From Candidatus Obscuribacterales bacterium (GTDB lineage: Bacteria > Cyanobacteriota > Vampirovibrionia > Obscuribacterales > Obscuribacteraceae): 64,000 nt of DNA. The position numbers and the translations under genes are program-made. Of the stretch, positions 44,622 to 51,281 are shown one piece after another. Each line of letters begins with the position of its first letter. The first letter of the stretch is position 1. The notes beneath the pieces are model-generated. The model did no database searches, had not been told where the DNA came from, and worked only from the letters and a program-made list of their open reading frames with translations. The stretch is from the NCBI GenBank assembly GCA_019744775.1, contig JAIETZ010000004.1, positions 186,001 to 250,000 on the forward strand, read 5' to 3'.

Positions 44622-45506
44622 ATGTCATTTGAGGCAATTTCAAGAAAACAGGATACGCCTGCTACAAACGGCGATCATTGTCTTAGTGTGGTTGAAATCC
44701 CCGTGCTTTTAGCCGGGAAGAAGGCCGCCGAATACGAGAAGGCGGAGTATTTAGAGTCAAGCGACACGGCCCAACTATATAAACGCACCCACGACGCTGT
44801 TGTGCATGTCGTTCTAGAGATTAAGCCCAGTGAGTTGTTGAAACACGGCTTAATGGACAAGGACTTGTACAAGGAGCTTACCAAAGAAGAAAGGCAAACT
44901 AAGCTGAAAAACTCTGCAACAGGTTTTTTCATATCTTCGGATGGAATTTTGGTTACCAACTACCACGTAGCGCACATAAAATGCGACTTGAGCGCTCAAT
45001 GGCCTGACGGCAGGAAAGTTAGCCTACGCAAGATAGCCGAAAATAAAAAAGCCGATCTCGCCATTCTTAAAATCGACAGTCCGGAACCAATGCGCGTAAC
45101 TGCATTATCGCTTGCCAATGACGATGTCTTACCTAACGAAAAGTTGACTGCACTTGGTTATCCCAACCAATGGAACGCCTTACACCTCTCACCCGGAGAA
45201 CTTCTCAAATCAGGCAAACGCAAGGATTTCTTGCCTAACTCTACCTGTCCGTCAGTAAAAGGTGTTCGTCAGTCACTTTCAATAATGCAAACCAGCTGCC
45301 ATGAAGCACCAGGAGCATCTGGCTCACCGGTTTTAAATGAGACTGGAGAAGTCGTGGGAATAAACTTCGCCGGACCGTCACCGGATGCTGAGGACAAACC
45401 AATGCACAGCTTTGCTATTCCGGTTAAGGAATTGAAAAGGATTATGACAAGACTGCCGGAATTGCGAAACGTTATTGGCGAAACTAATTCACCAGCTCGA
45501 CGATAG
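44622..45506 (+). CDS. Trypsin-like serine protease without signal peptide or PDZ domain
   Basis: 294 aa, HtrA/DegP-type chymotrypsin fold. The catalytic triad is visible: His115 (VTNYHVAH), Asp145 ([10 protein letters not shown]) and Ser233 (APGASGSPV). About 85 N-terminal residues precede the domain. No signal peptide and no PDZ domain are seen, so it would be cytoplasmic unless exported otherwise, which is unusual for the family. GAGGG before the ATG at 44622 selects this start over the ATG at 44598. The end overlaps the convergent thiolase gene by 23 bases. Confidence 0.8.
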
Positions 45507-46683
45507 TTGCTATTCCTTGTCCTACTCCGATGCACATAGTAGCCAGCCCATAGCGGACTTTGCGACGCCTCATCTCGTGTACAAGTGTAGCCATCACGCG
45601 AGCACCAGTCGCACCTAGAGGATGTCCTAGGGCAATAGCTCCGCCGTTGACGTTCAATTTGGATTGATCAATGCCAAGATCTTGCACGCAGGCTAAGACT
45701 TGAATGGCGAATGCTTCGTTCAATTCGACAAGACCTATGTCGTTCATCGTCAATCCAGCTCTTTCAAGAACCTTCTTAGTAGCTGGAATTGGACCAAGTC
45801 CCATAACTGCCGGATCAACACCAGCGACTGCTGATGCTACATAGCGGGCCATCGGCTTCAAACCTAGCTCTTTGACTTTCTTGTCAGAGACAATAAGAAC
45901 AGCAGCGGCTCCGTCGTTTATCCCGGAGGAATTACCGGCTGTAACCGTGCCGCCTTCGCGAAAAGCTGCTTTCAGTTTTGCAAGGTCAGCCATACTTGTT
46001 TCCGGACGCGGATGTTCGTCTTTGGAGACAACTATTGGAAGACCTTTTTTCTGCTTGACGGAAACCGATACTATTTCGTCGTTGAACTTGCCATCTTTGA
46101 GAGCGGCACCATATTTTTGCTGGCTGGACAAGGCAAACTCATCTTGCTCTTCGCGCGAAATTTTGTATTTTTCGCAGACATTTTCCGCTGTTTCACCCAT
46201 GGAATAGGGGTGATACATTTTGGACAGCTTATCATTTATAAAACGCCAACCAAGTGTGGTATCAAACATTTTTAGATCGCCACGCGGCATAGCACTTTCA
46301 GGCTTACCCATAACGAAGGGCGCGCGTGTCATGGACTCAACACCACCGGCTATGTAAATGTCGCCACTGCCTGCAAGAATTGCCTGGCAGGCTTCATTGA
46401 CTGCCATAAGCCCTGAACCACAAAGCCGGTTTACCGTGCCGCCGGCAACACTTACCGGCAGTCCGGCTAAAAGAGTCGCCATGCGTGCCACGTTGCGGTT
46501 GTCTTCACCTGCCTGATTGGCGCAACCCAATAAGACATCTTCGATTTGATTGGGATCAATGGCATTGCGTTTTACAAGCTCGGCAATAACCAGCGCTGCA
46601 AGATCATCCGGACGCATAGAGCCTAAGGCTCCTGCATAGCGCCCGATCGGTGTTCTCAATGCATCAACAATAAAAGCTTCCAA
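45484..46683 (-). CDS. Acetyl-CoA acetyltransferase (thiolase)
   Basis: 399 aa, type II/I thiolase joining two acetyl-CoA or cleaving 3-ketoacyl-CoA. Catalytic residues: nucleophile Cys88 ([12 protein letters not shown]), His354 ([12 protein letters not shown]) and Cys384 (TMCIGVGQG). Length and motifs are those of AtoB/PhaA/FadA-type enzymes; biosynthetic and degradative forms cannot be separated here. The start is a TTG at 46683 preceded by AGGGGG, which gives the usual [13 protein letters not shown] beginning; the upstream in-frame stretch lies inside the previous gene. Eight bases separate it from the stop of the repeat-protein gene upstream, with the ribosome site at that stop. Confidence 0.92.
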
Positions 46684-46691
46684 AGTTCCCC

Positions 46692-48587
46692 CTACGGTTG
46701 CACTAACCAAAACTGATTTTCTCTTACAAGCTCTGCCAAGACTTCCGCAGGGCAATTTGCATTACTTGCTACTTGTTCGACAACGCGAATATCCTGGTCA
46801 TGCGCAAGACGCATCAGAGTATCGGCACTTGTTTTGTCCGAACCGGCCACTGTCCCACGCACGCGATAGTCCTTATCCTTAGCAAGTTCATCGAGCTTTG
46901 CCGCATCAGCAAGCGGGCTAAATACAAAAGCTGCTCTTACCATAGGACTTGTATCTTGAATAAGGTCTTTTGCTAAGTCAGCCGGCAATGACGGATTTTG
47001 TGCCGCCACACTCCTTACAAAAGTGTCGTCGGATTTAGTCAATTGTCCAAGAATGTACTCAGGACACTCTTTTTGGCCCGCCAAAAAGATCTTTACTGAT
47101 ACATCATTATCGTCAGCCAGCTTGATCAAAGCTTCCTTCGGCAAATCAGCACGAGCAAAAATAAGTTTTTCGACTTCCGAATCGCCGTCGCCGGCCAATG
47201 TAGTAAGTGCATCTTTCGGACACGACTTGTTTTTAGCTAGAGTTTGACGGACCCGAGACTGCGAATCTGCAGACAATCTGGTCAAAATAGTGCCCGCAGC
47301 ATTCTCATTTCCGGCAACAGCTACTCGTACTTCCAATTCAGGATCTGCAGCAAGTAATGTTAGAGCCGCCGTTTCGAAAGTCTTATTTGCCAATCTTCGC
47401 CTTACGGATGGTTCTGAATCTTTAGCAAGTTTTACAGCCATGGCTGAAGAAAGTTTTCCATTAACGGCCAGCATTTCCTTAACGACCGTTGAAGGATGCT
47501 GAGAAAGTTTCAACATTATTGACTCAGGCAGATCAGTTCTTGCTGCCACTACTTGCACAACAGCAAGAGAGCTGTCATCTGCAAGTTTGGACAATTGTTC
47601 AAGGCCAGTATGGAGATTTTCCGCAGTGGCTGCTCTGACAATTGCTTCAGTGTCGACACTGAGCATTGCCAGCATAGACGTGCTGCAATTTGGATTTGCT
47701 GCCAATGCCCATCGTACTTTCGTATTAGCATCCTTTAGCAAGGCATTATGCATGTCAGAGGGCAAGTTCGGGTTTAAGGCTACTTCCGCTCTAACTTCCC
47801 ATGCCGGATCCGCGGCTAGAACTCTCAATATGTCTGCCGGCGTAGATTCATTTGCGGCAACTGCTTCTCTAACAACAAGGCTTGAGTCTTTAGCCAAACC
47901 CTTCAATGTTTCGGCGGATGCTTTTTTGTTGGATGCAACAAACGACCTTACACCTAAATCTCCATCAGAAGCAAGGACGGAAAGACATTCAGGAGTTGCA
48001 TTTACCTGGCGAGCAAGAAAAGATCTGACAAGACGGTCGCCCATTTTGCTCAAACGTTGCACAACATCGGGTGGCACATTCGGGTTTCGCGCCAAAGATA
48101 AAAGCAAGAATTCCGTTTGCCCTAGATTATTTGCTAAATCACGCAGAGCCTGAGGAGATGTTGCCGGATCAGATGCAATTAATTCATAGACACGGACTTG
48201 TTGATTCTTGGTCAACCTGCTCATTACAGTCGGCGAAAACGGCCGACCGCCTTTTACAAGTGCTTCAACAACAAATTGATCGGCATCACCTGCCAAACGG
48301 GACTTTATTTCGTCCGTGCATTTCGGATTTTGTGCAACCTGAGCACGCACTAAATCAGATGGATCTTTTGCCAATGTACTGAGTAACGAAGGTGGGCAAT
48401 TGGCGTTTTTAGCTACTGCTAGGCGCAATCTTGGCGCCGGACCTTTTTCATTCCATACAGCAAGCTGTTGAGTTGGTTGAATAACAGCAGCTCTTGCTCG
48501 CGAAATATCCTTGCCGGATTCCTGCGAGAAAGCGGCAGTATTAGAAAGAGCCAAGGCCAATACGAACGGCACAAATTTTTGCGTCAT
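46692..48587 (-). CDS. Exported variant-leucine-rich-repeat (LRV/HEAT-like) protein
   Basis: About 631 aa. Signal peptide ([19 protein letters not shown]). Then some 22 tandem ~24-residue units of the form 'LA.D....VR..VA.NP..P...L', for example [17 protein letters not shown] and [20 protein letters not shown], which fill almost the whole protein. This is the LRV/HEAT-like solenoid used for protein binding. The start is either ATG 48587 or GTG 48599; GAGG lies upstream of both but fits neither perfectly. It precedes the thiolase on one transcript, although their functions look unrelated. Confidence 0.78.
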
Positions 48588-48618
48588 GACAAGCTTCACC
48601 TCACCAAGAAATTTTAGT

Positions 48619-50490
48619 TCATTGGTGGACTTTCATGACGATTTCTTTGAGTTTTTCTCGGTCTATTTCCTGACTGGCATATTCGATATATTTCACCTGC
48701 CAGTCATCAAGGTCTTTCAATATCTCGGACAATGCCTGCCCGACGGCTCTGGCTGCAGCCAGGTCAATGCCCACTTCGCCGCCGGAGCCAATAGCAAACA
48801 TACGAGCGCGCACCGAATAGCCCTGGGTGGCCTGAAGGGACAACTTCAGAAGGACGGAATTACGTTCTGATCCAACTGCCTGCCCAATGGCATAGACAAT
48901 TTGCTGAAACTTATCCAGAGGTGCGGCAATGCCCTCTCTAGGAGCACCGACGAGCTTGTAATGCAAAAGCCTGTCTACTGCTTGCGAGAATGCCAAGGTA
49001 GTTATTGACTGCTGGTTATCAATGGCGTTTGAAATGGGTGTTAAACCATCACTCATTTCCCAGACAATCCGCATCAAATCAATTTCATCGCTTGTCAGCT
49101 CAGCTTGCGTACTAGGGTCCATCATTCGTCCGGAAGCGAGCAAATGATGCGAATCAGGATATCTTTCAAGCGGTGAATGCACGCCTTTTGGTAACTTGCC
49201 CCAGACAACCAAAATATTGTCTTGCGCCAATGCGCTATCAAGAAGCAGTTTGTCCAGAGGCTTGGTTACTTTCGCCGATTCGTGAGCAAGATCTGGTGGT
49301 GGTTGTCTTTGAATAAAGACGAAAATTCCTTCTCGCCATACAGAAGCAAATTCCAAAACTGCCGCGTTACCCAAGATACTTCCCAGCTTGGCATTAGTTA
49401 AAATGCCTTTTTCAAACAATGCTCTAAATTGCTGTCCTTTATACTCCACAGATAAGACTCCGGTTTCCCTGTTAGTGGAAAGAGTCTGCAAAACACCTGA
49501 TGGATCCGTTGTGCCTAAATAACCAACCAGAGACTGGACGGATTTTTCTTCAGGGCTAGTTGTAACGACACGTTTAGTTTCTTCAGCACCCCCACCTTGT
49601 CCATAAAATGCTTGATCAGACAAAGCAATTTCCAATTGCCGACAACTCAAATAGCCTTTGGAAATAGCTAGTGATCCTAAAGACAACCGAACACTGTTGG
49701 ATGTATTTTGCTGTTGAAAAAGCATCTCATCAAGTTGATCCTGGCTGACTATTCGCGACGCCAAAAGATATTCGCTCAGCTGAAAAGCAATTTTGTTCTT
49801 GAAGCAATTGACCAAAAAAGGCACTTTGGCAAATAGCGGATAAATTGCCTTCGACTCTTCAAGCGATCTCAATTCCTGTTTCAACTCATCCATTGTCAGT
49901 TTTCCAGGCTCTTTGGTCAGACGTTGAGAAAGGACGTTCAAAGGTGAGTAATTGTCGATGGCAGCCAATACTTTGTTGCGCTTGCGATGCGACTCTAGAC
50001 CACCTTTGAGTTTGATACCAAAAGAGGTAAGTACGGGAATTGAAGACATAAGAATTTGTTCGGCTAGATCAGTCGACTTTTCCAGCTCGGCACCTTCTTC
50101 GGCAAATTTCCCGTAGACATGTTTCGCCAGCAATGGCGAATAGTCATAAACTTCAGCATGAGAGTCAAAAACACTGAAGCCTTTAGGTCCAAGTTGCGAA
50201 TCCTTGGTAAAAACAATTACCTTGTCTTGTTTTACGACAGCCATGGCACCCGTGCTGCTAAGCACATTTTCAGCATGGGAAGCCAACTCTATTAGTGATT
50301 CGAACGAAAACAAAAAACCTGATTTGCGAGCATCAACTATCACAAAGTCGCACAGTTGTTTCACTTGTTCTAGTTTTTCCAGTTCAAGAACTGCATCAGG
50401 TCCAAATACCAAAAAGACAATTTTTTCTTCTGAGGCGGCATTAGCGACCTCACTTTGTCTTGTTTGCGACTGATTGGACTGAACGGACAC
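48619..50490 (-). CDS. STAS-like / MshEN-like / DUF4388 (PATAN) protein
   Basis: 623 aa with a mosaic layout. Residues ~22-95 resemble a STAS domain (DFVIVDARKSGFLFSFESLI). Residues ~240-290 resemble the N-terminal domain of GspE/MshE ATPases (LLASRIVSQDQLDEMLFQQQ, SLGSLAISKGYLSCRQLEIA). Residues ~325-410 match DUF4388/PATAN (GVLQTLSTNRETGVLSVEYK, FEKGILTNAKLGSILGNAAV). The C-terminus (~450-600) has helical and roadblock-like stretches. DUF4388 proteins act in gliding, phototaxis or signalling in Cyanobacteria and Myxobacteria. The start is GTG 50490 with AAGGTG upstream, and a perfect palindrome lies 23 bases before it. The next gene upstream also carries MshEN-like units. Confidence 0.7.
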   Translation of the reverse strand: MSVQSNQSQTRQSEVANAASEEKIVFLVFGPDAVLELEKLEQVKQLCDFVIVDARKSGFLFSFESLIELASHAENVLSSTGAMAVVKQDKVIVFTKDSQLGPKGFSVFDSHAEVYDYSPLLAKHVYGKFAEEGAELEKSTDLAEQILMSSIPVLTSFGIKLKGGLESHRKRNKVLAAIDNYSPLNVLSQRLTKEPGKLTMDELKQELRSLEESKAIYPLFAKVPFLVNCFKNKIAFQLSEYLLASRIVSQDQLDEMLFQQQNTSNSVRLSLGSLAISKGYLSCRQLEIALSDQAFYGQGGGAEETKRVVTTSPEEKSVQSLVGYLGTTDPSGVLQTLSTNRETGVLSVEYKGQQFRALFEKGILTNAKLGSILGNAAVLEFASVWREGIFVFIQRQPPPDLAHESAKVTKPLDKLLLDSALAQDNILVVWGKLPKGVHSPLERYPDSHHLLASGRMMDPSTQAELTSDEIDLMRIVWEMSDGLTPISNAIDNQQSITTLAFSQAVDRLLHYKLVGAPREGIAAPLDKFQQIVYAIGQAVGSERNSVLLKLSLQATQGYSVRARMFAIGSGGEVGIDLAAARAVGQALSEILKDLDDWQVKYIEYASQEIDREKLKEIVMKVHQ

Positions 50491-50512
50491 GTCAACACCT
50501 TGTAATTGGCTT

Positions 50513-50537
50513 GTAATTTACACAGCCTGTAAATTAC
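50513..50537 (-). promoter_or_regulatory. Perfect 25-base inverted repeat, candidate operator
   Basis: Arms GTAATTTACA and TGTAAATTAC around CAGCC. A further GTAATT copy lies a few bases nearer the gene. No T-run follows, so it is not a typical terminator. It sits in the 76-base gap between two minus-strand genes. Confidence 0.5.
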
Positions 50538-50566
50538 TATGCCCGCAATAGTGCCAAAAACAAACC

Positions 50567-51178
50567 CTAACAGGCTAAAGCTTCCAGAATTTCGTCGGCC
50601 AGCCAGCCTCTTTCAACCAGTATCTTACCTAAAGGCTTTTCGGAAGTACGCTGTTCAACCAGCGCAATACGCACCATATCTTCTGTTACCAGACCCAAGC
50701 CAATTAGACGCTGCCCAATCTGGTGAGGCGCATCGGCGGGGAGATTTATCAGCCGCTGGCTAAGTAAGAAACTGTCCAATTCCATCTGGGTTACAAGAGA
50801 GGCACTCTTTAATATTTCCCCAAGCGGTAAATTCAATATAGCTTGCTGTCCGAGAGCTTCCTGTAATTGTTCAAGACTGATTTTGCCGGAGGCGACCAGA
50901 AGCTGCCCTAATTTGGGCGGCAGCAGGGACTCTATGTCATCAGGCATTTTACTGGGCGAATCCTCGTCACCATCTAGAATCCGCTTATAAGCATCTTCAA
51001 TACCTAGCGCAGCCTGGCGAGCCTGGACCCAAGACTGTGGTGTGGCCAGACAATCATCTTCATCAAGTGATGCCTTAAGGGCTTCATAAACCTGTGCAAC
51101 TTCGTCTTTGCCGGCTGCTGGTGTCAGTCCGAGCAATAAATATGGACAAGTGGAACGAGCTTTTTGCAAGACTGTCAT
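50567..51178 (-). CDS. J-like domain protein with two MshEN-like units
   Basis: 203 aa. The N-terminal ~65 residues resemble a J-domain-like helical bundle (CPYLLLGLTPAAGKDEVAQV, AALGIEDAYKRIL) but lack the HPD motif, so Hsp70 stimulation is unlikely. Two units of the GspE/MshE N-terminal type follow: LGQLLVASGKISLEQLQEAL and IGQRLIGLGLVTEDMVRIAL with LGKILVERGWL. Such units bind cyclic-di-GMP in MshE; the key residues cannot be checked reliably here. The ATG at 51178 (GAGG upstream) is chosen over the longer frame. It precedes the DUF4388 protein, and the two probably work together. Confidence 0.65.
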   Translation of the reverse strand: MTVLQKARSTCPYLLLGLTPAAGKDEVAQVYEALKASLDEDDCLATPQSWVQARQAALGIEDAYKRILDGDEDSPSKMPDDIESLLPPKLGQLLVASGKISLEQLQEALGQQAILNLPLGEILKSASLVTQMELDSFLLSQRLINLPADAPHQIGQRLIGLGLVTEDMVRIALVEQRTSEKPLGKILVERGWLADEILEALAC

Positions 51179-51281
51179 CGTAACCGTCCTCAATTCCAGT
51201 TTACCCCCGAACGCCCAGAACGGGAATAGACTTGTAACAGCAAGCGCCAATTAGATGCTGGACGGATTCTTAATGTTCCGG

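Follow-up and report, generated by a model that had tools for sequence, protein, structure and literature searches.

The MshEN domains of MshE/PilB/GspE-type motor ATPases (VcMshE, PDB 5HTL; GSPII-A, GSPII-B and GSPII-C of PilF) are 53-residue four-helix units built from two 24-residue motifs. The published motif, RLGxx(L/V/I)(L/V/I)xxG(L/V/I)(L/V/I)xxxxLxxxLxxQ, is described as occurring twice with a five-residue spacer, and XpsE is reported to have a degenerate MshEN domain that does not bind cyclic di-GMP (c-di-GMP) (PMC5013675). For PilF, only GSPII-B and GSPII-C are reported to bind c-di-GMP, GSPII-C with a proline at position 1 of motif II, but not GSPII-A, which has one nearly perfect and one degenerate motif; the same source widened motif position 1 to R/K/L (PMC11731258). 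Fusions of MshEN to the non-ATPase domains REC (receiver), HD-GYP and CheX and to kinases have been described (PMC5013675). In Synechocystis, PATAN regulators are reported to bind PilB1/PilC and to steer type IV pili (PMC7690835, PMC12288463), and a DnaJ3/DnaK1 system is reported to act at cyanobacterial pili (PMC9239167). Here we analyzed a 64,000-nucleotide stretch of a Candidatus Obscuribacterales genome (hereafter the window), in which two adjacent genes, P1 and P2, had been proposed as a c-di-GMP-responsive adaptor pair with MshEN-like units. Both open reading frames (ORFs) proved to be real and co-directional on the minus strand, at the coordinates originally given (Table 1), and neither product has a Pfam ATPase match, as had been claimed. 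We computed their domains, motif conservation, gene order and order-level distribution, together with the GGDEF proteins and MshEN-bearing motor ATPases of the genome. Binding of c-di-GMP is probable for P2 and improbable for P1, since the ligand-contact positions are kept in unit 1 of P2 and motif I is ruined in P1. The conserved partner of P1 is an LRV gene, not P2.

P2 matched the NCBIfam profile NF053729 (c-di-GMP motif, MshE-related) in two stretches with an E of 5.3e-22 and 77.4 bits, against a curated cut-off of 38. When the whole genome was searched with this profile in six frames, the two stretches scored 43.8 and 46.8 bits, each over the cut-off. A PDB sequence search with P2 returned PilF (3.4e-5) and MshE (0.008), and the P2 model lay on MshE (5htl_B) at 1.1 Å over 55 columns with a probability of 1.00 (Foldseek E 1.7). 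No Foldseek match of P2 had an E below 0.001, and matches were judged by coverage, root-mean-square deviation and probability; the best-covered ones include J domains and MshE. The Pfam MshEN model, PF05157, matches neither P2 nor P1.

The contact positions were then compared in an alignment of 29 P2 homologues, for the most part one best match from each genome and not every paralogue; of the 35 distinct sequences scoring above 60 bits, six that were partial, interrupted or weaker had been set aside. Unit 1 has a spacing of exactly 24-5-24. Only nine columns are invariant over the 29 sequences, and Gly3, Leu17 and Gln24 of both motifs of unit 1 make up six of them (hypergeometric P 8e-7, only a guide because the homologues are related); unit 2 contributes none. 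At positions 1, 2, 3, 17, 21 and 24, unit 1 of the window protein reads K-L-G-L-L-Q in motif I and P-L-G-L-L-Q in motif II, so that the contact positions are kept in both, position 1 by the extended consensus (K) or by analogy with GSPII-C (P). Position 21 of motif I is V, I, L or M among the homologues, and the window protein breaks the published relaxed pattern at two places, position 11 in motif I and position 7 in motif II. P2 would thus be a stand-alone, ATPase-free receptor whose unit 1 would clamp one c-di-GMP in the MshEN manner.

The J-like character proposed for P2 was borne out at the family level. Pfam DnaJ matches 18/29 family members at E<=0.5 (best 1.9e-9), though not the window protein, and J-type helices are also indicated by the P2 model, which aligns with the J domain 6rzy_A (TMt 0.76, Foldseek E 0.72). 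The HPD tripeptide occurs in none of the 29 members, which makes stimulation of DnaK unlikely. Like DnaJ3 of the DnaJ3/DnaK1 system, a J protein in type IV pilus motility, P2 has a J-type part, but with its HPD lost this may be a docking helix bundle, not a DnaK co-chaperone. The DUF4388 profile also weakly matches the MshEN motif of 27/29 P2 homologues (P2 residues 89-114; best 0.0057), perhaps because it took in MshEN-like helices, or by chance. About 30 kb away, the same contig encodes another protein with J-like and MshEN parts (G000 C4:267505-268068), which shares 31% identity with P2.

P1 scored 28.5 bits against NF053729 (E 9.4e-7), a profile that matches 66/73 P1 family members at E<=0.1, and a PDB profile search with P1 gave PilB (E 0.027) and MshE (E 0.64). 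Residues 233-296 of the P1 model (pLDDT 82, pTM 0.51) align with MshE carrying c-di-GMP (5htl_A; Z 8.9, 2.1 Å, 60 aligned, 38% identity) and with GSPII-B of PilF (8pdk_B; Z 8.6), the following helical row having Z 5.6; a whole-model Foldseek search gave no match with an E below 0.001. On the structure match together with the profile matches, we take the MshEN four-helix fold as shown for modeled P1. The MshEN resemblance thus persisted in profile and structure tests for both proteins, although P1 reaches it through a sub-threshold profile score with which the model agrees.

To compare motifs, 80 P1 loci were aligned, minus 8 without a P1 frame over 580 amino acids, giving 38 rows of group A, window included, and 35 of group B, a paralogue 28-33% identical to P1. 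Motif I fails the relaxed pattern in 38/38 group A rows (Gly3 0/38, Arg1 1/38, Gln24 9/38), and motif II keeps Gly3 and Leu17 in 38/38 and Gln24 in 32/38. In paralogue B, Arg1, Gly3, Leu17, Leu21 and Gln24 of motif I are each present in 35/35, as are Gly3, Leu17 and Gln24 of motif II, which misses the relaxed pattern through position 1 (Phe/Tyr in 33/35); its linker is longer, and a single B protein scanned alone reached 22.5 bits on the c-di-GMP profile, under the cut-off and with motif I only. Judged by these residues, group A has probably lost c-di-GMP binding and paralogue B may have kept it; we infer loss in A rather than gain in B. PilF GSPII-A, in which one motif is good and the other degenerate, is an experimental precedent for a non-binding group A. 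P1 and B would share an ancestor, most of whose contact residues B retains, and P1, a DUF4388/PATAN protein with a pseudo-MshEN bundle that lost motif I, would probably itself be unresponsive to c-di-GMP. The c-di-GMP responsiveness originally suggested for both proteins therefore fits P2, with its invariant contact positions, and probably not P1. The A/B paralogues offer a natural contrast of lost and kept c-di-GMP motifs within one architecture.

The DUF4388 domain predicted in P1 was found at 38.9 bits (cut-off 25) and in 30/30 family members; we take DUF4388 to be the PATAN domain. Among the Pfam matches listed for P1 at E<=10 there is no receiver domain. P1 therefore differs from PatA-type/PATAN response regulators (PixE, PixG, LsiR), with which it shares DUF4388, in having an alpha/beta N-domain, an MshEN-type bundle and a helical C terminus. 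The N-domain had been called STAS, for which we found no support: 0/30 family members match the profile at E<=0.5, and STAS is not among the 50 structure matches listed for the domain; a very distant STAS fold is still conceivable. Its structure matches are weak, to mixed alpha/beta folds with many methyltransferases (Z about 4-5.6, not decisive), and Pfam Methyltransf_3 reaches an E of 0.042, below cut-off. PHROGs gave no match at E<=0.01. Compared with the MshEN of motor ATPases, both proteins lack an ATPase domain, P1 has a longer linker and a degenerate motif I, and in P2 a pseudo-J domain precedes two units. MshEN in proteins without an ATPase is already known, and NfrB is reportedly a further case outside motor ATPases. 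Unlike the known fusions, P1 combines MshEN with DUF4388 and P2 combines it with a pseudo-J domain; neither combination turned up in our searches of open-access papers, which also returned nothing on Obscuribacter with cyclic di-GMP, and both appear to be undescribed. PMC5812497 mentions MshEN in its reference list alone, a paper with both DnaJ and MshEN speaks of PilZ proteins in its DnaJ passage, and those on Melainabacteria with c-di-GMP are, by title, unrelated.

A conserved P1-P2 pair, as originally predicted, was rejected at the family level. LRV genes lie within 500 bases downstream of P1 in 32/39 group A loci, whereas P2 adjoins P1 in six genomes only (G000, the genome of the window, and G129, G140, G135, G036 and G072). 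On the P1 tree, the six P2-adjacent rows group with a single row that lacks P2 (support 93), and the adjacency label changes twice. Within this single subclade the adjacency persists over P1 identities of 55-97%; retained down to 55%, it is not trivial, though local. P2 was found upstream in 5/30 loci of one neighborhood survey, in 2/20 of a chosen set (20 loci each of group A and of group B-like type), and in 3/41 named loci whose upstream sequence spanned 600 bases or more, or 5/45 with the contig-edge locus L140 and the frame-split locus L165 included; P1 of L165 is split in two frames, and its genome, G135, was counted as P2-adjacent. The six P2-adjacent genomes and the ten without paralogue B were read from tables, and contig ends in draft genomes can hide adjacency.

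The source organism is an uncultured relative of the non-photosynthetic cyanobacteria, and its assembly has 4.1 Mb in 13 contigs and is 97.8% complete. P1 matches (E<=0.001) occur in 53/289 genomes of the class, all 53 within its own order; P2 matches are in 53/53 genomes of the order, often several per genome, some best matches spanning the MshEN part only. A profile search of 386 genomes of the phylum, in which at most three candidates were scored per genome, gave no full-length P1 relative outside the order; own genome aside, the matches were all short and lay in the MshEN or DUF4388 region, a few extending back to about residue 150. The closest named P1 relatives are from Obscuribacterales metagenome-assembled genomes (97% identity to JAKFVJ010000285). 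Four P1 loci carry odd taxon labels (Chloroflexi for L141, Proteobacteria for L169 and L201, Actinobacteria for L209) and are tentatively taken as mislabeled bins because they fall among the rest on the P1 tree. In L141, probably such a bin, P1 is 90% and P2 85% identical.

The genome encodes 12 GGDEF, 5 HD_5 (HD-GYP-type), 1 PilZ and 3 DUF4388 matches, and the Pfam MshEN model finds two motor ATPases only; the enzymes of c-di-GMP and a motor thus exist here. GGDEF is present in 53/53 genomes of the order and EAL in 50/53, missing exactly in the three of the window's own genus (G000, G129 and G140), two of which are only 77-88% complete. Hydrolysis of c-di-GMP in this genus is presumably carried out by HD-GYP-type proteins. 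NF053729 matches 11 ORFs of the genome, including P1 and P2; 10 of them exceed the cut-off, and MshEN-type units outnumber PilZ, which has one match. Nine of the 11 are not motor ATPases. If these ORFs bind c-di-GMP, many outputs of the network here would be ATPase-free MshEN proteins.

Taken together, we give a probability of about 0.35 to a reading in which P2 is a separate c-di-GMP receptor and P1, with its PATAN domain and pseudo-MshEN bundle, serves as a docking protein for a pilus or secretion motor. Docking is suggested by the cyanobacterial PATAN regulators that bind PilB1/PilC: by this analogy P1 would probably dock on the motor and tie it to the LRV envelope protein encoded downstream, and in the one subclade P2 may make the P1 complex c-di-GMP-responsive. 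PATAN and MshEN in one chain suggest a physical link between two kinds of regulators of cyanobacterial pilus motors. Several points weigh against this reading. The P2 model is of modest confidence (pLDDT 64, built from five sequences), and the structure tool cautions that any Z score below about 13 can be commonplace for helical bundles. Part of the signal is a general likeness of helical bundles: Pfam FumaraseC_C reaches 3.1e-6 among P2 homologues (14/29), and P1 237-299 also has structure matches to fumarase/aspartase helices (Z up to 5.6). P1 scores under the NCBIfam c-di-GMP cut-off, and its motif II fits the relaxed pattern in only 6/38 group A rows. Among P2 homologues the pattern is met by only 3/29 in motif I and 1/29 in motif II, the deviations being mainly in the core: Cys at 6, charged or polar residues at 7, and Gln or Ser at 10. 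The analogy with motor-binding PATAN proteins is drawn from REC-bearing proteins, and P1 is without REC. There is no pilus protein among the annotated conserved neighbor families of P1, and its gene string does not speak for pili.

That gene string underlies the alternative that survives best, one that is possible if still somewhat unlikely: P1 would be a cytoplasmic regulator of its own string (LRV, thiolase, SbcD/SbcC-like genes) with no tie to pili or c-di-GMP, its MshEN and winged-helix-like parts would be protein-protein or nucleic-acid modules, and P2 would be an unrelated neighbor. The conserved order fits it, with thiolase downstream in 34/35, SbcC-like in 32/35 and SbcD-like in 29/35 group A loci in addition to LRV, as do the degenerate motif I and weak structure matches at P1 455-519 that we read as winged helix (Z 4.0-4.5). 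Paralogue B, however, has the same domain order and keeps most contact residues in a different neighborhood, so that the architecture is not tied to the string, and DUF4388/PATAN proteins elsewhere act on pilus motors.

We consider it unlikely that neither protein binds c-di-GMP and that their MshEN-type bundles are general protein docking modules. P2 does deviate from the relaxed pattern, and there are precedents for degenerate, non-binding MshEN domains (XpsE, GSPII-A), but the invariant columns of P2 unit 1 coincide with ligand contacts that unit 2 has lost, as expected of a selected binding site. The proposal that both proteins bind c-di-GMP in a dedicated two-protein adaptor is quite improbable: although both have MshEN-type bundles, motif II of P1 keeps most of its contact residues and adjacency held over a wide range of P1 identities, P1 motif I fails throughout group A and the adjacency is confined to six genomes of one subclade, with two label changes. 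An extension of the reading we prefer, with P1 docking and P2 sensing, holds that the order has its own ATPase-free PATAN/MshEN scaffolds in a form B with the c-di-GMP site largely kept and a blind form A, and that the window's own branch lost B and placed P2 beside A, splitting sensing and docking in a c-di-GMP-controlled motor adaptor; this, too, we regard as having little probability.

Table 1. Features of the P1-P2 locus, with positions counted from the first letter of the window.
Feature	Position	Strand	Description
P2	50567..51178	-	203-aa pseudo-J protein with two MshEN-type units
P2 residues 11-70	50969..51148	-	J-like three-helix domain without HPD
P2 residues 89-141	50756..50914	-	MshEN unit 1, the probable c-di-GMP site; motifs of 24 residues each, separated by 5, with conserved contact positions
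P2 residues 153-203	50570..50722	-	MshEN unit 2; degenerate, last Gln missing
P1	48619..50490	-	623 aa, GTG start; alpha/beta N-domain, helical linker, MshEN-like bundle, DUF4388, C-terminal helical region
P1 residues 20-132	50095..50433	-	Alpha/beta Rossmann-like module; no STAS profile match
P1 residues 237-293	49612..49782	-	Four-helix unit of MshEN type; degenerate motif I, mostly intact motif II, 9-residue linker in place of 5
P1 residues 323-420	49231..49524	-	DUF4388 (PF14332), E 1e-9
LRV solenoid gene	46692..48599	-	Signal-peptide-like N terminus (by eye); conserved P1 neighbor
Thiolase gene	45484..46755	-	3-oxoadipyl-CoA/acetyl-CoA acyltransferase type; conserved further downstream of P1
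F10 upstream of P1			Loci L148, L149, L150, L155, L157, L167, L173, L175, L176, L183

On the minus strand, P2 is followed after 76 bases by P1, which is followed after 19 bases by the LRV gene and then the thiolase gene. The ORF that encloses P2 runs over 50567-51250, and a start at the internal ATG at 51178 gives 203 amino acids, an upstream TTG 227. In this 76-base gap, a scan for promoters and terminators found nothing resembling either; its one promoter site lies inside P1, against 3.7 expected by chance. The LRV assignment of the neighbor held (PF01816, E 2.4e-49). From its N terminus this protein is probably outside the cytoplasm, and direct contact with P1 would then require a membrane partner. 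The string of P1, LRV, thiolase and SbcD/SbcC-like genes is conserved across the order and has no obvious common function; SbcC-like is our reading of an AAA_23/AAA_27 protein, and SbcD-like that of a neighbor without a Pfam match.

Paralogue B (L100-L117, L184-L219) lies mostly between a LysM gene, the family F3 and an M17 leucyl aminopeptidase gene. F3, which has no Pfam match, is upstream in 31/34 group B loci, and in 23/34 the M17 gene follows on the same strand at most 500 bases downstream; LRV is found in 0/32. A B orthologue is absent from 10/53 genomes of the order, including this one, and P2 adjoins P1 in 5/10 genomes without B and in 1/43 with B (Fisher P 5e-4). This favors the proposed split of sensing and docking between P2 and A, but it is not independent evidence because the genomes are related, and 8/10 of the B-less genomes are under 90% complete. 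Another MshEN-bearing gene, F10, with up to three units, lies divergently 1.4-4.8 kb upstream of P1 in 10/45 group A loci. These counts come from a profile made with 13 matches of the own genome, which passed over weaker relatives of F10 present at other loci; with it, among loci with 5 kb upstream present in group A, an MshEN gene (P2 or F10) lies at most 5 kb upstream in 11/35, compared with 0/29 group B loci.

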